The position numbers and the translations under genes were made by a program. The notes under the pieces are model-generated. The model did no database searches, was not told the DNA's origin, and saw only the letters and a program-made list of their open reading frames with translations. Shown piece by piece: positions 5,586-16,191 of a DNA stretch of 33,366 nucleotides (its first letter is position 1; the number at the start of each line of letters is the position of its first letter). The DNA lies in the NCBI GenBank assembly GCA_015272465.1, contig JACYLR010000217.1, forward strand, positions 1-33,366, in the 5' to 3' direction. This DNA is from Gloeomargaritaceae cyanobacterium C42_A2020_066. Lineage in GTDB: Bacteria > Cyanobacteriota > Cyanobacteriia > Gloeomargaritales > Gloeomargaritaceae.

Positions 5586-5636
5586 GCCGTTGCACTGCCA
5601 GGCTGGCGTAGAATGGCGGCGGCGTTGTAGGTGTCT

Positions 5637-6566
5637 ATGGCTGTTGCCCCAACTACCCTGACAGCCCTGGGGCAGGCCCTGGGCCAGATTATTGTCGGTC
5701 AAACGGCCCTGATTGAGCCTTTGTTAGTTGCAGCCCTTGTGGGGGGCCATGTGGTGCTCGAGGGGGTGCCTGGCACCGGAAAAACCCTGCTGGTCAAAGC
5801 CCTTGCCCAACTGCTGGGGGCAGAGTTTCGCCGGGTTCAACTCACACCCGACATCCTACCGGCAGATATTCTGGGCACCAGCATCTTTGACCCCCAAGCG
5901 TGCAGCTTCAGTTTCCGGCCTGGCCCTATCTTCACCGAAGTACTACTGGCAGATGAGGTCAACCGCACCCCCCCTCGCACCCAAGCAGCCCTGTTGGAGG
6001 CCATGCAGGAACAACAGGTCACCCTGGAGGGACAAACTCGGCCCCTACCGCCCTTTTTCTGGGTGATCGCTACCCAGAACCCCCTAGAATTTGAGGGAAC
6101 CTACCCCCTGCCCGAGGCCCAACTGGATCGCTTTTTGTTCAAGCTCACGGTAGATTATCCCGACTACGAAGCGGAGAAAACCCTGCTCAGGGCCGACTTG
6201 GGAGCTGCACCCCTACCTCAACCCCTACTGAAGCCTGCTGACTTGGTGGCCCTACGGCCGGCCGTGGCAGCCCTCACCGCTACCGATGTCTTGATTGAGT
6301 ATCTCCTAGCCTTGGTGCATCACACTCGCCAGCACCGAGACCTGCTCCTGGGAGCTTCACCCCGTGCCGCAGTCGCCTGGTTACAGGCTGGGCGGGCGCG
6401 GGCGTGGATGGCCGGCCGGGACTACGTCACGCCGGATGATCTTCAGGTGCTGGCCCTGCCCTTGCTTCAGCATCGACTGATCCTGAAACCGGAAGCCCAA
6501 CTCGAAGGAGTCCAGCTGTCCGAACTGATCCAGCAGCTTGTGGAACAGGTGCCGGTACCGCGCTGA
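5637..6566 (+). CDS. MoxR-family AAA+ ATPase (without adjacent DUF58 partner)
   Basis: Residues 43-50 are the Walker A loop (GVPGTGKT), 103-107 the Walker B (LLADE) followed by NRTPPRTQAALLEAM, and ATQNPLEFEGTYPLPEAQLD gives sensor 1 and the following conserved block. The 309-residue length is typical. MoxR ATPases act as chaperones that assemble or activate partner enzymes, usually encoded beside DUF58 and VWA proteins. No such partner lies here: the gene is followed 27 bases later by tRNA-Ser and the integrated element. ATG 5637 has AGGT just upstream; GTG 5631 is an alternative. A second, better-equipped MoxR gene lies at 15217-16191. The client of this one is unknown. Confidence 0.85.
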   Translation: MAVAPTTLTALGQALGQIIVGQTALIEPLLVAALVGGHVVLEGVPGTGKTLLVKALAQLLGAEFRRVQLTPDILPADILGTSIFDPQACSFSFRPGPIFTEVLLADEVNRTPPRTQAALLEAMQEQQVTLEGQTRPLPPFFWVIATQNPLEFEGTYPLPEAQLDRFLFKLTVDYPDYEAEKTLLRADLGAAPLPQPLLKPADLVALRPAVAALTATDVLIEYLLALVHHTRQHRDLLLGASPRAAVAWLQAGRARAWMAGRDYVTPDDLQVLALPLLQHRLILKPEAQLEGVQLSELIQQLVEQVPVPR

Positions 6567-6593
6567 ATGACTTGATAGGATGGAGACTCGCAT

Positions 6594-6678
6594 GGAGAGA
6601 TGGCAGAGTGGTCGAATGCGGCCGACTTGAAATCGGCTTCGGGGAAACCCGACGGGGGTTCGAATCCCTCTCTCTCCG
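6594..6678 (+). tRNA. trnS: tRNA-Ser (anticodon UGA)
   Basis: The seven-base acceptor arms GGAGAGA (6594-6600) and TCTCTCC (6671-6677) pair, with discriminator G at 6678. The anticodon stem CCGA/TCGG encloses CTTGAAA with anticodon TGA. A long variable arm (TTCGGGGAAACCCGA) marks a class II serine tRNA. The T loop is GTTCGAATC. CCA is not encoded. The last ten bases are part of the 13-bp repeat (6669-6681) that recurs at 13488-13500, so this tRNA is the integration site of the downstream element and was left intact by it. Confidence 0.95.
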
Positions 6679-6681
6679 TTA
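6669..6681 (+). other. attL core (13-bp repeat at tRNA 3' end)
   Basis: TCTCTCTCCGTTA covers the end of the tRNA-Ser acceptor strand, the discriminator base and three bases beyond. It recurs exactly at 13488-13500. Tyrosine integrases commonly recombine at tRNA 3' ends, and the integrase gene starts about 200 bp downstream, the usual arrangement. Confidence 0.65.
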
Positions 6682-6837
6682 AAGTCACGATAACGAGTAG
6701 GGTTAAGGGGGTACTGGTGAGTCCTAGAACGTCATCCCATCAGTGACTAGAGGACAATCTCTAGGCACCAGATAGGTACAGGACAGTACGGCAAAGTCTC
6801 AGGGCATCCGCTACATTGGGGCAAATGAGATAGGGAG

Positions 6838-6859
6838 AAATGGCGATCCTGCCATTTTT
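6838..6859 (+). other. short hairpin upstream of the integrase
   Basis: AAATGGC (6838-6844), a GATCCT loop and GCCATTT (6851-6857) form a perfect seven-pair stem followed by TTC. It may be a weak terminator for tRNA read-through or an integrase or regulator site. It lies 24 bases before the integrase start. The rest of 6682-6882 shows nothing I can name. Confidence 0.35.
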
Positions 6860-6882
6860 CGTACCCCTCGCACTGCCCCATC

Positions 6883-8079
6883 ATGCTTACGGATGCCAAA
6901 ATACGGGCCTTGAAGCCCGGCGAAAAGATCGTCAGGGTGTATGACTCCCACGGGTTGTACATCGAGCAAGGGCGCGGCGGCCGGCCGGGCTGGAGACTGA
7001 AATATCGGTTTCACGGTAAAGAGAATCGGATCAGCTTGGGTACCTACCCGCAGGTGAGCCTAGCTGAGGCCCGCCGTCTTAGGGATGAGTACCGCGACCT
7101 GATCTACATCCAGGATGTAGACCCCGCGGTGCGGAGGAAGATCGAGCGGCAAATTAACACGCCGCCTGGTGATGCTTTCGAGCGAGTCGCCCGCGAGTGG
7201 CTAGCAGGGTTCTCTCAGGGCTGGGCACCGGCGCACACCAAAACCGTTGTAGACCGCCTAGAGAAGGATGTCTTTCCCTGGCTAGGCGGCCGGCCGATGG
7301 GGCAGATTACCGCCCCCGATGTCCTCGGCGTTGTCAAGCAGGTTGAGGGTCGGGGAGCGCTGGAGACTGCACACCGCGTTCTGGGCATCATTAACCAGGT
7401 TTTTCGGTATGGCATCAGCACCCAGCGCTGCACCCAAAAACCAGCGGTTGCGCTACGGGGTGCGTTGCCACCTGCCAGGGGGGAGCATCTAGCGGCGGTC
7501 ACTGATCCGGTGAAGCTGGGTCATGTGTTGCGAACCATCGATGCTTATCCTGGCTCCCTTGTGGTGCGTTGTGCCCTGCGGATGGCTCCCCTGGTGTTTG
7601 TCAGACCGGGGGAACTGCGGGCTATGCGGTGGTCAGAGATCGACTGGGATAAGTGCGAATGGCGCTACCAGTTGAGCAAAACCCACGGCGATCACATTGT
7701 CCCCCTGGCTACCCAGGCGCTCGCCATCCTTGAGCAGATTCGCCCCCTCACAGCCAAGGGGGAGTATGTTTTTCCCACACCGCGGGCAATGACTAGGCCC
7801 CTCTCCCCTGCGGCGCTTTCCTCGGCTCTAAAGTCGCTGGGGCTGGGGGAGGAAATGACGCCCCACGGGTTCAGGGCAACCGCTCGGACACTACTTGATG
7901 AGGTTCTGGAGTTCCCGCCGCACATCATTGAGCATCAGCTAGGCCACAAGGTACGCGACCCCCTAGGACGGGCCTACAACCGGACAAGGCACCTGGAACA
8001 ACGCCGGGAAATGATGCAGCGCTGGGCTGACTATCTGGATGAGTTGAGGGGGCAGCGAGGGGGTCAAGATGGCCGGTGA
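6883..8079 (+). CDS. tyrosine-type site-specific integrase (P4 type, DUF4102 arm domain)
   Basis: This enzyme catalyses integration and excision of the element at tRNA-Ser. Residues 1-90 match the DUF4102 arm-binding domain (LTDAKIRALKPGEK, then YIEQGRGGRPGWRLKYRF and SLGTYPQVSLAEAR). Residues 97-180 are the core-binding domain. The catalytic residues are all visible: R241 in RPGELR, K266 in SKTHG, H328 and R331 in HGFRAT, H355 in HQLGH and nucleophile Y365 in AYNRT. At 398 residues it is full length and intact. It starts at ATG 6883, about 200 bp from the attL core, without a strong ribosome site. Its last 11 bases overlap the next gene, so the two are probably translated together. Confidence 0.93.
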   Translation: MLTDAKIRALKPGEKIVRVYDSHGLYIEQGRGGRPGWRLKYRFHGKENRISLGTYPQVSLAEARRLRDEYRDLIYIQDVDPAVRRKIERQINTPPGDAFERVAREWLAGFSQGWAPAHTKTVVDRLEKDVFPWLGGRPMGQITAPDVLGVVKQVEGRGALETAHRVLGIINQVFRYGISTQRCTQKPAVALRGALPPARGEHLAAVTDPVKLGHVLRTIDAYPGSLVVRCALRMAPLVFVRPGELRAMRWSEIDWDKCEWRYQLSKTHGDHIVPLATQALAILEQIRPLTAKGEYVFPTPRAMTRPLSPAALSSALKSLGLGEEMTPHGFRATARTLLDEVLEFPPHIIEHQLGHKVRDPLGRAYNRTRHLEQRREMMQRWADYLDELRGQRGGQDGR

Positions 8080-8722
8080 GAGTTGGCTTAGGGAGGATAC
8101 CAAAGAGGCCCTACTTGCATTTCTGAAAGATCAAGAAAGTCACCAATGGCTGGAGTGCTTCACTGATGATTTTCAGATGGGCAGAATGATGGCCGATCCC
8201 CTGGAGTTGTCGCGATGGATTACGAATCCCCAAGGCATCAACAATGACATCCCAACCAATAGCCCTATGGGGCAGAATACGCACCACCGAGACTGCCTCA
8301 TAGCAGAGCGGTTCATTCATAGGATGGGCTACCCCAGTTTCAGGCTGGAGATGGTGACACTCAGAGACTGGAAGCCGGTGCGCATAGCACTCAAATCAGA
8401 CTGGAAACTGATTGACTGTGAGGCTCGTTTGTGGCTGGCTGCCTGGCGGATGATCGGTCAATTAGGGTTGATTCATCAGATGTGCGAAATGAACGAGTTC
8501 CCAGAGGATGAACCTATCGGGTTCGGTGGTCAGTCTATCCAATTGTTCAAGGGTCTCCTGATGGAGAGTGGTCTGATCCGTCTATACGTGGCACGTTCTC
8601 GTGACGGACGGAGGTGGTCATCGCATGGGGAGCACGGATATATTCCTTATCTTCAGTGCCAGAATCGGAAGCTGGAAAGCCGTCTCAGGAGAGAATCCCC
8701 TCGAAACCCAAACCCCCATTAG
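8069..8722 (+). CDS. hypothetical protein of the integrated element (217 aa)
   Basis: It starts inside the end of the integrase gene (11-base overlap), which suggests translational coupling. I recognise no family. It is soluble, rich in Trp, Met and charged residues, with a DxE-type acidic stretch (WKLIDCEARLWLAAWR) in the middle and a basic C-terminus (CQNRKLESRLRRESPR). No membrane segment or signal peptide is seen. It lacks GGCCGGCC motifs, as does the whole 7.3-9.6 kb stretch, so it may have a different origin from the flanking parts of the element. Possible roles in such a position (excision control, host-phage interaction, defence cargo) are guesses. Confidence 0.6.
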   Translation: MAGESWLREDTKEALLAFLKDQESHQWLECFTDDFQMGRMMADPLELSRWITNPQGINNDIPTNSPMGQNTHHRDCLIAERFIHRMGYPSFRLEMVTLRDWKPVRIALKSDWKLIDCEARLWLAAWRMIGQLGLIHQMCEMNEFPEDEPIGFGGQSIQLFKGLLMESGLIRLYVARSRDGRRWSSHGEHGYIPYLQCQNRKLESRLRRESPRNPNPH

Positions 8723-9012
8723 AGCCACCCTTCAACCCTAGGTGGTACCCAGTGGCAGCGGAGGTGATCCGAGCACTCGATACCATGCTCCCCAGGATGG
8801 GGAGATATGCCAGGGATAAGGACTACCAGAAACTAGCTGGCCTGCGCCCCTACTTCAAGGAAATTGTCGATGCACGTTCAGCCGTGGTGAAGGTGTTAAG
8901 ACCCGGCCATCCGGTTGACCTAGATGGTAGCGAAAATCACCAAGGTAGACGCCAAAAAGTGAAATATAGGCCCCGTAATCCCCGTGACATCGACGTTAGC
9001 GGGAAAGGTTGA
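8614..9012 (+). CDS. hypothetical protein of the integrated element (up to 132 aa)
   Basis: The frame overlaps the end of the preceding gene by 109 bases from GTG 8614, which has a GGACGGAG run just before it. GTG 8656 or GTG 8752 are alternative starts. The body begins with a Pro-rich linker (PSKPKPPLEPPFNPRWYP), then a helical region (EVIRALDTMLPRMGRYARDK, then YQKLAGLRPYFKEIVDARSA), then a basic tail. No family is recognised. The large overlap could mean that the two frames were once one gene split by a frameshift, or that the true start is later. It is probably co-transcribed with the integrase. Confidence 0.5.
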   Translation: MVIAWGARIYSLSSVPESEAGKPSQERIPSKPKPPLEPPFNPRWYPVAAEVIRALDTMLPRMGRYARDKDYQKLAGLRPYFKEIVDARSAVVKVLRPGHPVDLDGSENHQGRRQKVKYRPRNPRDIDVSGKG

Positions 9013-9079
9013 TTTTCGTGCATAGTCACCATGAAGGACGCTTGGGATAATCCTAATAACTCAATTTAGGTGCCGAGTC

Positions 9080-9310
9080 ATGTTGGGAAACACCAAGGAA
9101 CTCGCTAATGACTTAGCAAAGCGCCGCTACCTTGACCTGCCCGAAGTGCTGGAAATCTTCAGGCTGAGCCGCACAACTTGGTATCAGGGCATCAAGTTGG
9201 GCCGCTATCCCAAGCCGATCAAAGTAGGCCAGCGCCGGGTCGTTTGGCGCGCTGCCGACCTTGAGGCCCTAGCCCAACGCCTGGAGGGTGGGGCCGATGC
9301 TGAATCTTGA
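9080..9310 (+). CDS. AlpA-family phage regulator / excisionase-like protein
   Basis: This 76-residue protein has the AlpA/MerR-like winged helix-turn-helix: RYLDLPEVLEIFRLSRTTWY, then QGIKLGRYPKPIKVGQRRVV, then WRAADLEALAQRL. AlpA proteins of P4-like islands bind DNA near the integrase gene and promote excision or integrase expression. It starts at ATG 9080 with AGGTG about nine bases upstream. Its stop overlaps the start of the next gene (ATG 9297), so the two are coupled. Together with the integrase and the primase-helicase it defines the core of the element. Confidence 0.8.
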   Translation: MLGNTKELANDLAKRRYLDLPEVLEIFRLSRTTWYQGIKLGRYPKPIKVGQRRVVWRAADLEALAQRLEGGADAES

Positions 9311-9680
9311 CGACGCCTGGGGCGAATGGATGCCACCCCGCAGGGCCTCACGCGTCCTGGGCGTGACCCCTGAGTTCCTGCGGGATATGCGCCTCAAGGG
9401 GAAGTGGCTGGAGCACTACCACTTCAGCTTTGTCAAGCCATCCAGGCAGCATTTCTACAATGTGCCGCTTTGCCGACACTACCTAGCCTGCGGCGGGTTT
9501 ACCAGGTTGCACTGGGCCGCCGTCCATGAGTACTGGCATTCCCTACCCCGCCCCCGCCCCAAGCTGCCCGACTTCCTCCCAGAGGTCGCCGATAACGCCT
9601 GGCATCCATCGACCCCCGGCCGGCCGCTGCCCCCGGCCCAAAAAAATACCCCGGCGGCGTCGCACGGGGAAGGGCAGTAA
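9297..9680 (+). CDS. small HTH-like hypothetical protein of the element
   Basis: It starts at ATG 9297 inside the end of the AlpA gene, with GGAGGGTGGGG just before it, so it is translationally coupled. The N-terminal third resembles a helix-turn-helix (PRRASRVLGVTPEFLRDMRL), and the C-terminal 40 residues are Pro-rich and low in complexity, carrying a GGCCGGCC motif that encodes GRP. The family is not recognised. Similar small proteins between AlpA and the primase in phage islands are often DNA-binding accessory factors, but that is analogy. Confidence 0.6.
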   Translation: MLNLDDAWGEWMPPRRASRVLGVTPEFLRDMRLKGKWLEHYHFSFVKPSRQHFYNVPLCRHYLACGGFTRLHWAAVHEYWHSLPRPRPKLPDFLPEVADNAWHPSTPGRPLPPAQKNTPAASHGEGQ

Positions 9681-9710
9681 ACATTCGAAAACTTACCCCC
9701 ACACTACACC

Positions 9711-10609
9711 ATGAGCCGCCGAAACGGTCACGCACCCCAGCCAACGATTGCCCCCGACACCCACGTACATCGGCCGACACCCCCGGCCGGCCGGGCAATC
9801 CACCCCCGGCACCGTCAAGAATGGCTCGATTCTGGGGTGTCCCCCGACATCATCGAGCGCAACGTACGCAGCACTAATGACCCCAGGGAAGTTGACGAAC
9901 TGCTGAACCGCAACACGGATCGCCGGTGGCGGCACTCAGATAACCTTGTCCCCGCCTGGGTAGTCGACGGACTAGATCCCAGTTCAGGGGAGCGGTGGGG
10001 ACTGGGGGTATAGGTCAAGCCTGACAACCCACCCCCCAAACTGGACAAGGCCGGCCGGTAATCGGCACCGATGGCCAGCTCAAGCTCAATAAGTACCTGG
10101 GAGCCGCCGGGGAACCCACGGAGCCACTGTTTTTAGATAACGGGGTATTGGGGTTCTGGCCGGCGACCCTGGCAAACCCAACCACTCCTATCCACATTGT
10201 TGAAGGTGCTGAGAAAGCGGCGGCACTGCTGAGCAGGGGCCTAGCCGCGATCAGCATCTCCGGCTGTTGGAACGGCCAAAAGGCGGGCAAGCTGAACAAG
10301 CTGATCAGAAAGTTCGCCGCCAAAGGCCGGCCGGCCTATCTGTGGCCAGATCAGGATTGGCATGACAAGGGCCTGGTGCGGAAAGGCTGGGCCACCCTGG
10401 GGTGACTGTTGGCTAGAGCCGGTTGCGATGTCCACGTCTGTAACTGGGATAAAAACTTCAAGGGCATCGATGATTACCTAGCTGCCCACCCTGGGGAGGA
10501 TGTCCACGAGTTTGTAGAGTTTGCTGATCCATTCAAGGAATGGGCATCTGACGCCCGCGAACTGGATCGTGAGCAGTGAGCGGGCATAGTCAACCTTGAT
10601 CTTGACGGG
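9711..10609 (+). pseudogene. N-terminal half of a DUF3854/TOPRIM primase fused to VapE-type helicase, broken
   Basis: Frame pieces from ATG 9711 to the helicase region read as one protein. First comes RHRQEWLDSGVSPDIIERNV and VDGLDPSSGERWG, typical of the DUF3854 primase start, then VKPDNPPPKLDKAG. A shift follows at the GGCCGGCC at 10050-10058, then VIGTDGQLKLNKYLG, PIHIVEGAEKAAALL and YLWPDQDW, the TOPRIM-like acidic Glu and DxD. The frame is stopped by TAG at 10011, needs one extra base near 10055, and carries TGA at 10403 and TGA at 10577 before joining the helicase frame. Between the stops the protein sequence is well kept (DKNFKGIDDYLAAHPG). TOPRIM/DUF3854 proteins prime replication of mobile elements. 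The likely state is recent decay; recoding is an untested alternative. Confidence 0.7.
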
Positions 10610-12115
10610 TTGCTACGCCTGTTTCGGGGCCTGTACGGCGAGCGGCTCCAGTTCAACGCACTAAACCAGTCCTGCGAACTGGATGGGGAACCGCTAGACC
10701 CCGACCTGGTGCATGTGGAACTAGGCGATCGGTTCAACGTCCGGGCCGGCCGGGAAAACGTGGTAGACACCCTCAACTATCTGTGCAAGCAGCGGGCCTA
10801 CAACCCAGTCGTTGAGTACCTAGACAAGGTTGCGGCGGCGGTGGAGCCGGGGGACATCGACAATATGGCCACCAAGTACCTGCACATTTCCGAATCTGAC
10901 CCACTGGTAGCGCTACGCAACGCCCAGGTACGGAAGTTTTTGATCTGCTGTGTAGCCCGCGCCTATCGGCCTGGGTGCAAGGTTGACACTGCCCTCATCC
11001 TCCAGGGCCGCCAGAACCTTTGGAAGTCCTCATTTTTCAGGGTTCTAGGAGGTGCCTGGTTTGACGATTCGATGGGGTTGATTGAGAACAAGGACGATCT
11101 GATGATCGCCCACAAGTGCTGGATTCAGGAGTGGTCAGAGTTTGATTACGTGTCTGGCCAGCGGCACGCCAGTCAAATCAAGGCATTCCTGAGCCGCCAG
11201 TCCGACACCTTCAGGCCACCCTACGGCCGTAGTGCCAAGACTTACCCCCGGCGCTTTGTCATCTGCGGCACGACCAACCAAACCGAGTTCCTAAATGACC
11301 CCACAGGGAGCCGCCGATTCTGGGTTATCCCCGTCAGCCAGCTGATTGACATCCAGGCCCTGGAGCGGGATCGGGATGCCATCTGGAGCGCCGCGGTCCA
11401 CGCCTATCGCAACGGTGAGCAATGGTGGCTGACCCCGGATGAGTTTGCCCAGTCCGAGGATGCCAACAGGGACTACCAGGCCAGCGACCCCTGGACGGAT
11501 GACATCGCCGCCTATGTGGCCAGCCGCCAGAGCGTGACGGTCAAGGAAATCCTCAAGGCCCTGGATGTGGACAGCGGTCAGCAGACTAAAGCCCACGAAA
11601 ACCGGATCGCTGCCATCCTCAAGGCCCAGGGCTGGGAGAAGTCGCGCCGTAGCGAAGGTGGTACCAGACAGAAATGCTGGAAACGGGAAACTCTTGGGGA
11701 GAAGGTGGTGCCAGGTGGTACCACCAACCCTGAAACTCCCGCTCCATCGACATTAGAGCCTGGCACCACCCCCCTAAATGAGGTGGGGCCACCTGGTACC
11801 ACCCCTGGGGTAAGTGGTGCCAACGCAACCGAGGGACTGGTACCACCCCTACCCGACTTGGTACCACCTAGTACCATCCCTACAGGGGGGGTGGTGCCAC
11901 CCAAAAATCCCGACAACACGGGCATTACAGCCGACCTGGTACCACCTGGTACCACCCCTAGCCCAACACTTTCCCAGGCAAGTGAAAAAACGGACGCCCC
12001 TGGGTTCGCGTCACCTGTCACCGATGCACTGGTGACGCGTGAAAACCTATCGGTGACACCCTCAAGCATCGATGGAGACGGACATGAGGGAACGCGTTAC
12101 CGATGTCACCGATAG
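10610..12115 (+). CDS. VapE-like superfamily 3 type helicase domain, C-terminal part of the replication protein
   Basis: This 501-residue frame (TTG 10610; the same frame continues upstream to a TGA at 10577) contains the VapE/DUF5906-type P-loop ATPase. TALILQGRQNLWKSSFFRVL is the P-loop (residues 133-140), WIQEWSEFDY the Walker B region, and FVICGTTNQTEFLNDPTGSR the sensor region with an Arg finger, followed by RRFWVIP. VapE proteins are replicative helicases of phages and satellite islands. The P-loop lacks the usual Gly before Lys (Trp138 instead). From residue 350 to the end is a Pro/Gly/Thr-rich linker whose DNA is packed with GGTACC repeats. The frame ends at TAG 12113 but continues sensibly beyond. 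It is probably the helicase half of a once larger protein. Confidence 0.75.
   Translation: MLRLFRGLYGERLQFNALNQSCELDGEPLDPDLVHVELGDRFNVRAGRENVVDTLNYLCKQRAYNPVVEYLDKVAAAVEPGDIDNMATKYLHISESDPLVALRNAQVRKFLICCVARAYRPGCKVDTALILQGRQNLWKSSFFRVLGGAWFDDSMGLIENKDDLMIAHKCWIQEWSEFDYVSGQRHASQIKAFLSRQSDTFRPPYGRSAKTYPRRFVICGTTNQTEFLNDPTGSRRFWVIPVSQLIDIQALERDRDAIWSAAVHAYRNGEQWWLTPDEFAQSEDANRDYQASDPWTDDIAAYVASRQSVTVKEILKALDVDSGQQTKAHENRIAAILKAQGWEKSRRSEGGTRQKCWKRETLGEKVVPGGTTNPETPAPSTLEPGTTPLNEVGPPGTTPGVSGANATEGLVPPLPDLVPPSTIPTGGVVPPKNPDNTGITADLVPPGTTPSPTLSQASEKTDAPGFASPVTDALVTRENLSVTPSSIDGDGHEGTRYRCHR
11660..11954. repeat. cluster of GGTACC-centred repeats inside the helicase gene
   Basis: Seven exact GGTACC copies start at 11660, 11717, 11795, 11839, 11860, 11939 and 11949, most inside a wider TGGTACCACC. 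Variants GGTGCC or GGCACC lie near 11707, 11762, 11816 and 11893. The copies fall in a region coding for a repeated LVPPGTTP-like linker. Satellite and P4-type elements often have their replication origin as iterons in or beside the primase gene, so these may be initiator-binding sites. Repetition of a low-complexity peptide is the alternative. Confidence 0.65.
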
Positions 12116-12118
12116 GTT
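12044..12118. repeat. 15-bp perfect inverted repeat at the end of the helicase gene
   Basis: AACCTATCGGTGACA (12044-12058) and its exact complement TGTCACCGATAGGTT (12104-12118) flank 45 bases. Another GTCACCGAT lies at 12016-12024, so the motif occurs three times within about 100 bp. The arrangement fits a binding site for a replication or regulatory protein, or a folded RNA. Confidence 0.7.
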
Positions 12119-12334
12119 CAACACTTTCCTGAATCACAGAAAAACGGCCGGCCGTTCCAGGTAGGTGACTTGGTTCGGTACACGGGCGGTCACGGGCCAG
12201 CCCTGTGCGTTTGGGCCAGAGTCCCCCACGCCACCGTGATCAGGGTTGAGGGCGAGCAAGTCATCGTCAAGGCTGAGGGCTGGGCAGTCGAGCGACCGTA
12301 CCCCGCCAAAGACTTGCGGAAGCTGGGTGCATGA
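12116..12334 (+). pseudogene. possible C-terminal tail of the helicase beyond TAG 12113 (SH3-like fragment)
   Basis: The helicase frame continues past its TAG without another stop to TGA at 12332. It encodes FQVGDLVRYTGGHGPALCVW, then VIRVEGEQVIVKAEGWAVER, a pattern like a small SH3/KOW-type beta-barrel. The TGA overlaps ATG 12331 of the following frame (ATGA). The tail therefore looks like real former coding sequence separated by a stop or a local frameshift. Alone it has only a TTG start (12167). Confidence 0.4.
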
Positions 12335-12441
12335 TCCGCCACATCCTACGCCCAACCGTGGGCCGCTACAACCCAAGCCCAAGGTCACCCCCAACCCGGC
12401 CGGCCGGCCATCCGCTCCCAAGTTCCCCGGAGGAACCCGCC

Positions 12442-12585
12442 ATGAATGAAGTTGATCAACTCAAACTCAAGATCGCCAATCTACTCGCCGAGCAAATCCA
12501 GGCTGAGATAGCCACCGCCGCCGCAGAGCAGGCAGGCCCCTGCGAGCTATACACCGGTGATGATGACCTGGTGTATGCGGTCTAG
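12442..12585 (+). CDS. small hypothetical protein (47 aa)
   Basis: ATG 12442 follows GGAGGA with seven bases of spacing, a strong ribosome site. The frame is open upstream to ATG 12331, but that extension is Pro-rich and lacks a ribosome site. The product is a short amphipathic helix (VDQLKLKIANLLAEQIQAEI, then ATAAAEQ) with an acidic C-terminal tail (ELYTGDDDLVYAV). No family is recognised. Its place between the replication gene and the coiled-coil membrane gene suggests an accessory of the element. Confidence 0.5.
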   Translation: MNEVDQLKLKIANLLAEQIQAEIATAAAEQAGPCELYTGDDDLVYAV

Positions 12586-12633
12586 CCCAGCCGAAAATGG
12601 CCCATCCCATTGCACTCTGATGGTCGGGGAACC

Positions 12634-12673
12634 TGGGAAGAAGTGGGAAGAGGTGGGATGACCTGGGATGACT
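12634..12673 (+). repeat. four 10-bp tandem repeats, TGGGAWGANN
   Basis: Units start at 12634, 12644, 12654 and 12664: TGGGAAGAAG, TGGGAAGAGG, TGGGATGACC, TGGGATGACT. The period is exactly 10 bases, so all units face the same side of the helix. A related copy in the opposite direction lies at 12602-12611 (CCATCCCATT). The array sits in the 124-bp gap 36 bases upstream of the coiled-coil membrane gene and may bind a regulator or initiator cooperatively. Confidence 0.75.
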
Positions 12674-12709
12674 GGCCTATCGTAGAGGGGTAGCCCTCTG
12701 CCCTCTGCC

Positions 12710-13084
12710 ATGACCCAGGCCACAGACCCCACTACCGGTGATGTTCTGAACCGCCTAGACCGGTTAACCACGGCGGTAGAGGCCATAGGCCATTCACTGC
12801 AAGAATCCAAGCTAGAGGCCCGTGTATACCAGGCTGAAACGACCCAGAAGCTGGCGGCCATTGACCAGCGGATCACAGACCTAGATAGGCGGATGGATCA
12901 GCGGATCGGAGACCTGGAGAAGCGCATAGATCAGCGGTTTGATGACGTTGATCAGAGACTCGATCGCACTGATAAGCGCCTAGATACTCAAGAGGGCCGT
13001 TTCTGGGGTTTCGTGGCAATCATCGTGACTGCCCTGATCGGTCTACTGGGCAAGCTGGCATTCTTCCCCAGTGGCCCCGTCTAG
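12710..13084 (+). CDS. coiled-coil protein with C-terminal membrane anchor
   Basis: This 124-residue protein has a long heptad region (residues about 15-98) with repeated units such as IDQRITDLDRRMDQRIGDLE and KRIDQRFDDVDQRLDRTDKR, then one membrane segment (about 100-119, FVAIIVTALIGLLGKLAFF) and a short tail. The layout (coiled coil plus C-terminal anchor) resembles XhlA-like or Bdr-like phage and cell-surface proteins, but I see no decisive family motif. It starts at ATG 12710, after the 10-bp repeat array. It is the last intact gene of the element and a candidate cargo or host-interaction protein (lysis, exclusion or membrane tethering), all inference. Confidence 0.7.
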   Translation: MTQATDPTTGDVLNRLDRLTTAVEAIGHSLQESKLEARVYQAETTQKLAAIDQRITDLDRRMDQRIGDLEKRIDQRFDDVDQRLDRTDKRLDTQEGRFWGFVAIIVTALIGLLGKLAFFPSGPV

Positions 13085-13487
13085 GTTTTCCCGTGATCAT
13101 CTGAGTGAAGAATGCAGTGCCGATATAGTCTAGCCCTACAGGCCCCGCCCCGCCGGGGTTCTAGCCATTGGTGAAGAATGACCAGGTGCTCCCACCTGGT
13201 GGCCTCAATCTGGCCATTGCTCAGCATCGCTCGCAGGCAGGGCCGGCCGGCGCTCGACAGCCTCAGCGTTCACAACTGAGGGGGTAGCGTCATCGTCGGG
13301 GATGAGCGCGACATAGGTTGTTGCCTGAAAGTAGCGCCGGGCATCCTAGACGGCCTAGCACCACTCAGTCCCTCCCTGGATGCCCTAGAGTACTTTGCGA
13401 GTCTGGGGATAGTTTTGGGGAGAGGACGCTAAAAATCACTGAGAGCGCCCCCCGTCCCATCGGGGTTGTAGCGGTTGAGTTGGACGG
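13085..13487. other. right part of the element, no intact gene; hairpin, direct repeat and coding remnants
   Basis: No convincing intact gene is seen. A direct repeat GTGAAGAATG lies at 13105-13114 and 13171-13180, and the second copy is followed directly by a perfect eight-pair hairpin, ACCAGGTG-CTCC-CACCTGGT (13181-13200). On the minus strand 13205-13345 reads protein-like (DARRYFQATTYVALIPDDD), ending at TGA 13205-13207, but is preceded by two TAG codons. On the plus strand 13276-13431 is also open (VAPGILDGLAPLSPSLDALE) with no start. One of these may be a gene remnant. Confidence 0.4.
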
Positions 13488-13500
13488 TCTCTCTCCGTTA
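13488..13500 (+). other. attR core (13-bp repeat)
   Basis: TCTCTCTCCGTTA is identical to the tRNA-Ser end at 6669-6681. The sequence after it (TTCCCTGCTGGGCAG) should be the original downstream flank of the tRNA. Upstream bases match the tRNA T arm only loosely, so the repeat could in principle be chance. The match of the element boundaries to the gene content supports it. Confidence 0.55.
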
Positions 13501-13658: not shown

Positions 13659-14090
13659 CTATGTCTGCGGCTTTAAGACATGACGTTGGGCCGCTCGCCA
13701 GTAGCGGGAAAAGCGCTTCAGGTCTAGGTAGCCCTCGTAGGCCAGGAAGGGTTCAACAGCCAAAACGTCCAGCCGGAGATGTTTTGTCAGGCCATCGCAA
13801 ATCTGCTGGAACCGGGGGCTCGGGCTGTCGGTGGTTACCACCCAGTTTGTGCCCTGTTCCTGGGCAAAGGTGAGGATCACTTGGGCGGGGTCGCCCCTCC
13901 GGATCACCACGGGTAAGTCCAACAGGCATTCGTAGAGGAACACTAGGCGTTTTAGGCTGATCTGTGATGCCGTCAAAAGAGTCTCATCCCAGACCCACAG
14001 GGCCGGCCGGCCGGGGTAGGCGGCAAAGCAGGGGCTGTGGGGATCCAGACAATCCCCATGAACCCAAAGGATGGGCTGATTAGGACTCAT
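13659..14090 (-). CDS. photolyase-like small domain protein
   Basis: This 143-residue protein resembles the N-terminal alpha/beta domain of DNA photolyases and cryptochromes: strand ILWVHGDCL, then PALWVWDETLL, a helix SLKRLVFLYECLLDLPVVIR, and a late YLDLKRFSRYWR block. It has no C-terminal FAD domain, so it is not a photolyase by itself. To my knowledge such short proteins occur across cyanobacteria, sometimes called FAD-binding domain proteins, with unknown role. ATG 14090 overlaps the stop of the DUF58 gene by four bases (ATGA), so it is the third gene of a MoxR-DUF58 transcription unit. Confidence 0.55.
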   Translation of the reverse strand: MSPNQPILWVHGDCLDPHSPCFAAYPGRPALWVWDETLLTASQISLKRLVFLYECLLDLPVVIRRGDPAQVILTFAQEQGTNWVVTTDSPSPRFQQICDGLTKHLRLDVLAVEPFLAYEGYLDLKRFSRYWRAAQRHVLKPQT

Positions 14091-15220
14091 GGCGTAACTG
14101 ATAGCTCACCTTGGGCTGCCACCAAACGGGCCAGAATGGGCGCGCCCTGGGTGCTGGGAAAGGGAGACTGCGGCCCCACCAAGATGCATTGATCCCGGGG
14201 GGTGACTCGCCATCGGCCGGCCGTGCCCGCGGTCTCTTGCTGTTCGGGGTCGCCGGGAAAGGTGAGCATGGCCAAGACCCGCAGCAGCGTATCCAGGTGG
14301 AGGGTGTCCTGGCCCGCCGTCGTGCGCTGGTCTAGGGTGACTAGGGTAACACTATAGCCCCAGCCGATCAGCCGCTGGGCTAGACCTGCACAAAGACTAA
14401 TCGCCCGTTCCAGGTCAGCACGATGAACGGCGGCCCGCCGACCCTGGGGCTGCCAGCGGTGATCCAGGCAAAGGGTGACCGACTCGGCATCTTGGCGTTC
14501 CATTTCCCGCACCAACCACTGATCCCGCCGGGCCGAGGTTTTCCAGTGAATTGCCCGTACATCATCACCGGGGCGAAAGTCGCGCAACCCAAAAAAATCA
14601 CTGCCCTGGCCCTGGGCCGGCCGCCGTCGTGACCCCCGCTCCCCCAGCGTCGCCAACACCATGGCCGGCGGTTCCAAAGGATTGGGATAGACCAGCAGGC
14701 CGGCCGGCCGAGACCGCCGCACCAATTTGCGGAATAGCTCAAAGGGAAAACTGGTGCGCAGTTCATAGCCTGTAAACAGCCACTGGCCGCGCTGGGGAAA
14801 GGTGACCCGATAAATGCCCTGCACCGTTTCACCCGGATCAATCCGCAGAAAGTAGAGACTCGGTAACTCCCCCAGTTCCGTCACTCGGTCTTGCACGGTC
14901 AGGGAGAAACTGGGCACCCGGCGCTTGGTATTGGTCACTTGGATCACCACCAGGGCGGGCTGACCCGCAAACACCTGGGTTGGGAGTTGGCGTTCCGCCG
15001 TCAGCCCTTTAACCACCTGCTCCGAAAGCACTGCGCTGGCAATGATCAGGCTGAGGAGCATCCCCAGCAGCAGGTAGAGCAGATTGTTGCCCGTGTTGAA
15101 GGAGCCGATACAAACCAGAAAGGTGACAATGGTGAACGTCCGTCCCACTCGCGTTAGGCCGAACCGGCGGGGCAGACGCTGTTCCAGGTCAGCCAGACGT
15201 TGCCGCAGGCCGGCCGTCAT
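14087..15220 (-). CDS. DUF58 domain membrane protein (partner of MoxR ATPase)
   Basis: It has two membrane segments near the N-terminus (about residues 27-43 and 47-65), a beta-rich extracytoplasmic-like middle, and the DUF58 signature at about 208-242 (FFGLRDFRPGDDVRAIHWKT then REMER), followed by a VWA-like fold. At 377 residues the length is typical. DUF58 proteins pair with MoxR ATPases, which are thought to remodel or activate them. Here the MoxR stop and the DUF58 start overlap by four bases, as do the DUF58 stop and the photolyase-like start, so the three are co-translated. The biological process served is unknown in this lineage. Confidence 0.88.
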   Translation of the reverse strand: MTAGLRQRLADLEQRLPRRFGLTRVGRTFTIVTFLVCIGSFNTGNNLLYLLLGMLLSLIIASAVLSEQVVKGLTAERQLPTQVFAGQPALVVIQVTNTKRRVPSFSLTVQDRVTELGELPSLYFLRIDPGETVQGIYRVTFPQRGQWLFTGYELRTSFPFELFRKLVRRSRPAGLLVYPNPLEPPAMVLATLGERGSRRRPAQGQGSDFFGLRDFRPGDDVRAIHWKTSARRDQWLVREMERQDAESVTLCLDHRWQPQGRRAAVHRADLERAISLCAGLAQRLIGWGYSVTLVTLDQRTTAGQDTLHLDTLLRVLAMLTFPGDPEQQETAGTAGRWRVTPRDQCILVGPQSPFPSTQGAPILARLVAAQGELSVTP

Positions 15221-16191
15221 AGGGGCAGGGGAATATCGGTGAGCAAGTCATTGAGAACAGCCTCCGCCTCAGCCCGCTGTTGGGGTAAGCCTTCACCGAG
15301 GCTACTGAGACTAAGGCGATGGGCCAGTACGGGAATAAACAGGGTTTGCAGGTCATCCGGCACACAGAAGTCCCGACCCTGCACCAGGGCATGGGCTTTG
15401 GTCGCCCGCACCAGCGCCAGCGCACCGCGGGTGGAGACCCCGGCCCGAATCAGGGGGGAGTTGCGACTGGCCAGCACCACCTTGAGGAGGTAGTCCACCA
15501 GGGAAGCCTCTAGGGTGACCTGATCCACCGCCCCCTGCACTTGGCGCAGATCCTCCAGGGACAGCACCGGCTCCAGACTTTCTACGGGTTCCTGCTGCCG
15601 CCGCTCCAGCAATAGGGCGCGTTCCACCTCAGCATCGGGATAGCCCACAGACAGGCGCACTAAAAACCGATCCAGTTGGCTCTCCGGGAGGGGGTAGGTA
15701 CCGTGGTACTCCATGGGGTTCTGGGTGGCCAGCACCACAAAGGGGTGGGGCAGGGGGTAGGTCTGGTCGTCCACCGAAACCCGCCGCTCGGCCATGGCTT
15801 CCAGTAGGGCACTCTGGGTACGGGGGGAAGTGCGGTTGATCTCATCTGCCAGGATCACATGGGCGAAAATTGGGCCAGGGCGAAACTCAAAGCCAGCGGT
15901 GTTTTTGTTGAAGATGGTCACGCCCAGAATGTCCGCAGGCAGCAGGTCACTGGTGAACTGGATGCGCTGAAAGTCGGCCCCCAGACTGCGTGCCAAGGCT
16001 TGGGCCAGGGTGGTTTTGCCCACTCCTGGAACATCCTCTAGCAGCACATGCCCGCCCGCCACAAGGGCCGTGATCACCAGATCGACCACGTGGGACTTGC
16101 CCCGAAACACCGACTCAACATTGGCCCGCAGGCGCTGGATCAGGGCGGTGGTGCCGGCCGGCCCTGGGGTAACCGTCTGGGTTGGGGTCAT
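15217..16191 (-). CDS. MoxR-family AAA+ ATPase
   Basis: Residues 53-60 carry Walker A (DVPGVGKT), 112-117 Walker B (VILADE) followed by INRTSPRTQSALLEAMAE. The ATQNPMEYHGTYPLPESQLD block (sensor 1) and the C-terminal lid (SPLIRAGVSTRGALALVRAT) are also present. At 324 residues it is full length. It is the first gene of the MoxR-DUF58-photolyase-like unit and overlaps DUF58 by four bases. It acts as a chaperone-like ATPase for the membrane DUF58 protein. It is similar in design to the orphan MoxR at 5637-6566, but the two share only family motifs. Confidence 0.9.
   Translation of the reverse strand: MTPTQTVTPGPAGTTALIQRLRANVESVFRGKSHVVDLVITALVAGGHVLLEDVPGVGKTTLAQALARSLGADFQRIQFTSDLLPADILGVTIFNKNTAGFEFRPGPIFAHVILADEINRTSPRTQSALLEAMAERRVSVDDQTYPLPHPFVVLATQNPMEYHGTYPLPESQLDRFLVRLSVGYPDAEVERALLLERRQQEPVESLEPVLSLEDLRQVQGAVDQVTLEASLVDYLLKVVLASRNSPLIRAGVSTRGALALVRATKAHALVQGRDFCVPDDLQTLFIPVLAHRLSLSSLGEGLPQQRAEAEAVLNDLLTDIPLPL

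Follow-up and report, generated by a model that had tools for sequence, protein, structure and literature searches.

Introduction

Tycheposons, described from Prochlorococcus, are tRNA-integrated elements of marine cyanobacteria, some of which are thought to be satellites. They are named in PMC10803314, a paper on the PICMIs (phage-inducible chromosomal minimalist islands) of Vibrionaceae, which carry an integrase gene (int), a gene overlapping it, alpA, one small gene before the primase, a primase and cargo, have no capsid genes and are nevertheless packaged. In this study, we describe an element of similar plan in a 33,366-nucleotide stretch of Gloeomargaritaceae cyanobacterium C42_A2020_066 (assembly GCA_015272465.1, contig JACYLR010000217.1, positions 1 to 33,366 of the forward strand; hereafter the window). 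To judge from sequence comparison, the element (6.8 kb, inserted at a tRNA-Ser gene) is probably a decaying member of a Gloeomargaritaceae family of small, self-replicating elements that integrate at tRNA and tmRNA genes, follow a satellite plan and have their origin in the tail of the initiator gene.

Like PICMIs, the element falls within 6 to 7 kb, lies between short direct repeats, has the gene order given above and lacks capsid-remodelling genes (PMC10803314). PICMIs, however, sit beside fis in Vibrionaceae and have a DUF3987/DUF5906 primase, whereas the window element sits in tRNA-Ser in Gloeomargaritaceae and its primase is a broken DUF3854-VapE type (the sister element at locus L025 has DUF3987, and that at L027 has DUF5906). 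PICI/SaPI elements resemble it in their VapE-type initiator helicase, private iterons at the 3' end of the initiator gene and C-terminal domain adjoining the iterons (PMC6092414, PMC7581432), and Gram-negative PICIs also in AlpA and rightward transcription; yet the window iterons lie inside the open frame and PICI iterons after it, a clear two-set, AT-rich layout is lacking, and neither a capsid- nor a terS-interference gene was found in the window (Pfam, PHROGs). P4 shares the P4-type integrase, an AlpA/Vis-like regulator, a primase-helicase, 8-bp iterons of similar spacing (about 9 and 43 bp) by the alpha 3' end (crr) and 10-bp tandem repeats in ori, but differs in host and site, in iterons that lie outside the alpha gene and in its helper-control genes sid, delta, psu and epsilon, for which the element has no PHROGs match. 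Phage lambda likewise has initiator-binding iterons within the initiator's own coding sequence (PMC3985674), although its ori lies in the middle of O, which is not a helicase; the window iterons follow directly on the winged helix of a helicase, in the 3' tail of its gene.

The element differs from PICMIs in site and primase type and has neither the helper-control genes of P4 nor the interference genes of PICIs; we file it as satellite-like only. Origins 3' of the initiator gene (PICIs, P4) and an origin inside the initiator gene (lambda O, PMC3985674) are already known. No report of iterons in the coding tail of a satellite-type primase-helicase, or of cassette exchange, was found in the open-access literature searched, subscription papers being outside the search.

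The element and its relatives

A preliminary description, made from the letters of the window, had bounded a 6.8-kb unit by a 13-bp repeat of the tRNA end, and two exact copies of TCTCTCTCCGTTA are indeed present (Table 1). This repeat is the longest match of the tRNA-Ser 3' end anywhere in the window; as 3.75% of random window 40-mers also found a 13-nt match in the same 10 kb, it is by itself modest evidence and leaves some room for chance. The call is supported by three relatives in which the integrase stands at a tRNA 3' end, with a 14- to 17-bp copy of that end 8.6 to 9.2 kb away. All genes between the att copies are on the plus strand: integrase, overlapping gene, AlpA, small gene, primase-helicase and small frames. 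The integrase and AlpA assignments of the preliminary description were confirmed, the former by three Pfam domains (Arm-DNA-bind_3, Phage_int_M and Phage_integrase) and the motif residues R241, H328, R331, H351 and Y365, the latter by its Pfam match.

Table 1. Features of the element in the window, with the basis of each assignment
Feature	Position	Strand	Basis
tRNA-Ser (TGA), integration site; 3' end is left attachment site	6593..6679	+	ARAGORN
attL core TCTCTCTCCGTTA	6669..6681	+	exact 13-bp repeat of tRNA 3' end
P4-type tyrosine integrase, 398 aa, frame and catalytic residues intact	6883..8079	+	Pfam/PHROGs, alignment, residue check
Protein overlapping integrase stop by 11 nt; position and overlap like PICMI iolg	8069..8722	+	open reading frame list, Pfam, PHROGs
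Open frame overlapping the preceding frame	8614..9012	+	open reading frame list
AlpA-type excisionase/regulator, 76 aa	9080..9310	+	PF05930, E 7e-10; PHROGs
Small gene directly upstream of primase, like PICMI up1	9288..9680	+	sequence comparison
DUF3854-VapE primase-helicase pseudogene	9711..12115	+	Pfam, comparison with intact relatives
C-terminal winged-helix domain of helicase, predicted iteron reader	11489..11686	+	AlphaFold2 model
Iteron cluster, 8 exact TGGTACCACC in open frame; putative replication origin	11657..11956	.	8-mer scan, genome count
Short frame where relatives have a small post-primase gene; weak KOW-like match only; start codon unclear	12116..12334	+	open reading frame list, Pfam
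Four imperfect 10-bp tandem repeats, CCTGGGAAGA type, intergenic before coiled-coil gene	12631..12672	.	repeat scan
Coiled-coil protein, C-terminal hydrophobic segment, cargo	12710..13084	+	open reading frame list, Pfam, PADLOC
attR core TCTCTCTCCGTTA	13488..13500	+	exact 13-bp copy

Relatives of the integrase were sought in 58 genomes, including the seven closest to the source assembly (2.73 Mb, 246 contigs), all of the same family but another genus. They were found, at 50 to 59% identity, in three of these seven (G002, G004 and G005) and in one other cyanobacterium (G014). AlpA follows the integrase in every case, and a primase-helicase comes next wherever the sequence is readable. The plan of the family is int, overlapping gene, alpA, small gene, primase-helicase and cargo. 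The preliminary description had proposed a search for the same integrase next to tRNA-Ser with an AlpA and a DUF3854/VapE gene; a family of the same plan exists, but the sites of the relatives are tRNA-Ala, tRNA-Val and tmRNA genes, not tRNA-Ser. The replication gene varies among members (VapE in the window and L029, DUF5906 in L026 and L027, DUF3987 in L025). Broader integrase searches (genome and viral contigs) returned hundreds of general P4-type integrases from other phyla and were uninformative on the family.

From the plan we infer, by analogy, phage satellite status. That the elements instead replicate and move without phage particles, plasmid-like, by natural transformation or by hitching on conjugation, is a credible though lesser possibility, in keeping with a window that has no packaging gene, with the use of VapE helicases and iterons by ordinary phage replicons too and with the natural competence of some cyanobacteria. 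The gene order is, however, that of PICMIs, which are packaged though they lack capsid genes (PMC10803314), and a terminase-small-subunit-like gene, weakly matched, is present in L026, L027 and L031. L026 and L027 (both from G004, Gloeomargaritales cyanobacterium VI4D9, OV696605.1) have this gene as well as a RusA-like gene; the match (L027 15310-15765; L031 6770-7391, split in two) is borderline to PF06056 and a PHROG, and the window has no such gene.

It is very unlikely that the element is the remnant of a full prophage stripped of its structural genes rather than a member of a small-element family. P4-type integrases do occur in prophages, and a helicase relative 41% identical, also followed by iterons, belongs to a complete phage, Synechococcus phage S-LBS1; but no structural or lysis gene was found between the att sites of the window element or its relatives (Pfam, PHROGs, gene order of the relatives), the 13-bp att sites enclose a complete module set, and the three relatives with defined ends have int, alpA and primase in the same order within 8.6 to 9.2 kb. 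Because structural genes are absent and the relatives are of this size on the same plan, we do not regard the element as a decayed full prophage. The preliminary description had recognised no capsid-redirecting gene, and the element proteins have no structural or packaging match in Pfam or PHROGs.

Iterons in the primase-helicase gene

The most repeated 8-mer in 400-nt windows was recorded for each locus. P4 served as the positive control: the scan picked out GGTGAACA in its annotated ori and crr, the type 1 repeats of which measure 8 bp and are spaced by 9 and about 43. For the window, it returned TGGTACCACC: of the 15 exact copies in the 2.73-Mb genome, 8 are packed into 300 bp of the primase-helicase gene's 3' tail and 7 lie elsewhere. 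This cluster, which the preliminary description had not noted, has 11 sites with at most one mismatch in the 8-bp core. The peak falls at the same end of the gene in L024, L025, L027, L028 and L030 and in most of 30 further VapE loci. Significance was assessed with 200 shuffles per gene (codon-order shuffles for the coding tail, dinucleotide shuffles for the 500 nt after it), and a private 3'-end 8-mer exceeded all 200 in 27 of 36 related genes, a set that includes near-duplicates (L230/L231 and L224/L226). The cluster lies in the open frame in about 19 loci, after the stop codon in seven and across the gene end in one, and in most loci its copies occupy two or three reading frames and both strands. 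In a second primase family, 19 of the 30 genes also have a cluster in the coding tail; there, an equally long 5' stretch has at most four copies of any 8-mer, and the negatives are mostly genes cut off at the locus end. Among phages, a cluster lies at or beyond the 3' end of the VapE gene in S-LBS1, PS3, LPPA36 and phiARI0399, and the same scan gave no 3' cluster for VarioGold and BU730P1. In L029 (G002), the iterons are unreadable, as N runs at about 9945-11345 and 12220-13400 hide most of the primase gene and some of a repetitive coiled-coil gene.

Modelled with AlphaFold2 from a 26-sequence alignment (pLDDT 90.7), the VapE fragment of the window has a winged helix at its C-terminal end (helices 294-303, 311-317 and 327-339; strands 342-349 and 352-359). 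Its best match in the PDB is PriRep1 with double-stranded DNA (7pds, TM 0.77 by query), which we take to be a SaPI initiator helicase. In SaPIs, Rep is reported to read, through its C-terminal domain, iterons that lie immediately beyond its gene (PMC7581432). In a comparison of 22 clusters, motif similarity correlated with winged-helix identity (Mantel r 0.42; 0 of 2000 permutations), and the partial correlation with the helicase core held constant was 0.35 (0 of 2000 permutations); the core adds nothing once winged-helix identity is known (-0.09). The iteron cluster is best read as a P4/SaPI-type origin inside the initiator gene, forming with its predicted reader a swappable specificity cassette.

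One pair of elements may record such a swap. L026 (tmRNA site) and L027 (tRNA-Ala site) lie on one VI4D9 chromosome, are about 9 kb each and are 99.9% identical over 3,949 bp. Their primases share 746 identical residues and diverge from the first of the two predicted wing strands (745-750 and 758-767 in L027, with the tail after residue 770 predicted to be disordered). Past the divergence, L027 has 11 exact copies of GGGTCACC and L026 has 16 sites within one mismatch of AGGCTTCC (5 exact). L026 also keeps five exact GGGTCACC, partly beyond the AGGCTTCC sites, after which the two elements are again 93 to 99% identical. The simplest reading of these sequences is that a wing-plus-iteron cassette was replaced and that part of the old array remains.

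Several observations weigh against this account of the iterons and their reader. No significant cluster was obtained in 9 of the 36 genes under the 200 shuffles (one of the nine, L015, is masked), and a clear AT-rich gap between two iteron sets, as in PICI origins, was sought in the window cluster and not found; an AT-richer gap of at least 94 bp occurs in L012, L223, L233, L241 and L242. The window cluster is itself a relic, since its primase gene is dead. L026 and L027 have an identical recognition helix and differ only in the wing and tail, so that the wing must contribute to specificity if the swap reading is right, and that wing is modelled with only moderate confidence.

The repeats might also be a feature of the protein, a proline-rich tail of low complexity (VPPGTTP and similar) that slippage has amplified and that has no role as DNA. 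The tails are of low complexity, that of L027 is predicted to be disordered, and some copies share one frame at spacings divisible by 3; yet codon-order shuffles that keep the amino acid composition never reach the observed counts, the same kind of cluster lies beyond the stop codon in seven loci, the clusters of PS3, LPPA36 and phiARI0399 lie at or just past the end of the VapE gene, and the motif tracks the winged-helix domain. Because copies also stand in several frames and on both strands, the repeats are unlike a protein repeat, and we rate this explanation as highly improbable.

Decay of the window copy and a proposed cycle

The preliminary description had named a primase-helicase, and its DUF3854/VapE identity holds, although not as a single working gene. 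The gene has an in-frame TAG (10011-10013), a frameshift near 10055 and two in-frame TGA codons (10403-10405 and 10577-10579); its intact counterpart in L030 is a single 821-aa frame (8710-11175), and many other relatives have open frames of 560 to 1066 aa. The first P-loop glycine after the start of the QG motif is N in the window and G, A or S in nearly all relatives. The window copy is thus, from its sequence, decaying, with a dead primase gene and with integrase and AlpA frames that are still open. Assembly errors in an otherwise intact gene are barely credible, even for one contig of a 246-contig assembly, given four independent lesions in one gene between an open integrase and open host genes and the substituted P-loop glycine. 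To the alternative first posed, a satellite family or a decaying remnant, both halves of the answer are therefore yes: there is a satellite-like family, and this copy has a dead primase, while the phage-satellite nature of the family is a matter of inference.

For an intact member, we propose that the element would be cut out in circular form by its integrase and AlpA, much as PICMI and P4 are. The primase-helicase would then bind its private, iterated motif of about 8 to 10 bp through the C-terminal winged helix, melt the DNA and start replication, and the element may be transferred in the particles of a helper phage, as the resemblance to PICMIs suggests. Because the initiator gene itself carries the iterons, in its 3' coding tail, the specificity domain and the origin would form one contiguous piece of DNA that recombination could exchange. 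The window copy, which has lost its initiator and kept integrase, AlpA and iterons, could at most excise, or replicate with a related initiator in trans. More generally, we lean towards the view that cyanobacterial integrative elements keep the origin in the 3' coding tail of the initiator and swap reader and sites as a unit, which may change the origin specificity of near-identical elements and let them share a cell; on this view, L026 and L027 would represent such a swap in progress.

Other features of the element and its genome

No sequence relative was found for the int-overlapping gene, and homology among the int-overlapping genes of the elements was tested and none was found. The frame that overlaps it is possibly its frameshifted continuation. 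The small gene before the primase had been described as HTH-like, a label not borne out by Pfam or PHROGs, in which the protein has no family match; distant relatives occupy the same position in L013, in L228 and in contig C192 of the same genome. By analogy, the tandem repeats before the coiled-coil gene may be a further set of sites, comparable to the type 2 repeats of P4 ori. Neither PADLOC nor Pfam gave a convincing cargo function; the PADLOC matches of the coiled-coil protein to Cas12u1, AriA and others look like coiled-coil artefacts and were rejected.

GGCCGGCC, considered as an element-specific site, was ruled out. It is the host's own highly iterated palindrome (HIP), with 5,579 copies in the 2.73-Mb genome (2.04 per kb) and only 2 to 79 in each of seven relatives, and goes unmentioned in the HIP survey PMC4390886. 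Copies in the window span 376-33158, and the 12 in the 6.8-kb element are near host density, which favours long residence of the element in this lineage.

By eye, from translations, the element is flanked by a MoxR-like ATPase gene (5631-6566) on one side and, on the other, by a DUF58-like gene and a second MoxR-like gene on the opposite strand (14087-16191). The tRNA-Ser/DUF58 neighbourhood is not kept in the same-family relatives (sister genus), which thus offer no empty site for comparison. Elsewhere in the genome, contig C168 (L032 7372-8188) has a tmRNA gene and then the start of a P4-type integrase at the contig end. At tRNA-Thr on contig C192 (L317 6154-10759) lies an element whose integrase belongs to another type. 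It also has a gene that overlaps int and a relative of the 9288-9680 gene, and its primase is truncated where the contig stops.

Significance

Gloeomargaritaceae are a cyanobacterial family regarded as closest to plastids. The int-alpA-primase satellite plan is here extended to them, with members that are intact, near-identical and apparently mobile. The position of the iterons lets sequence alone point to the probable origin of scores of cyanobacterial elements and to the domain likely to recognise it. The natural swap would make an old question, the joint change of initiator and origin specificity, directly testable.

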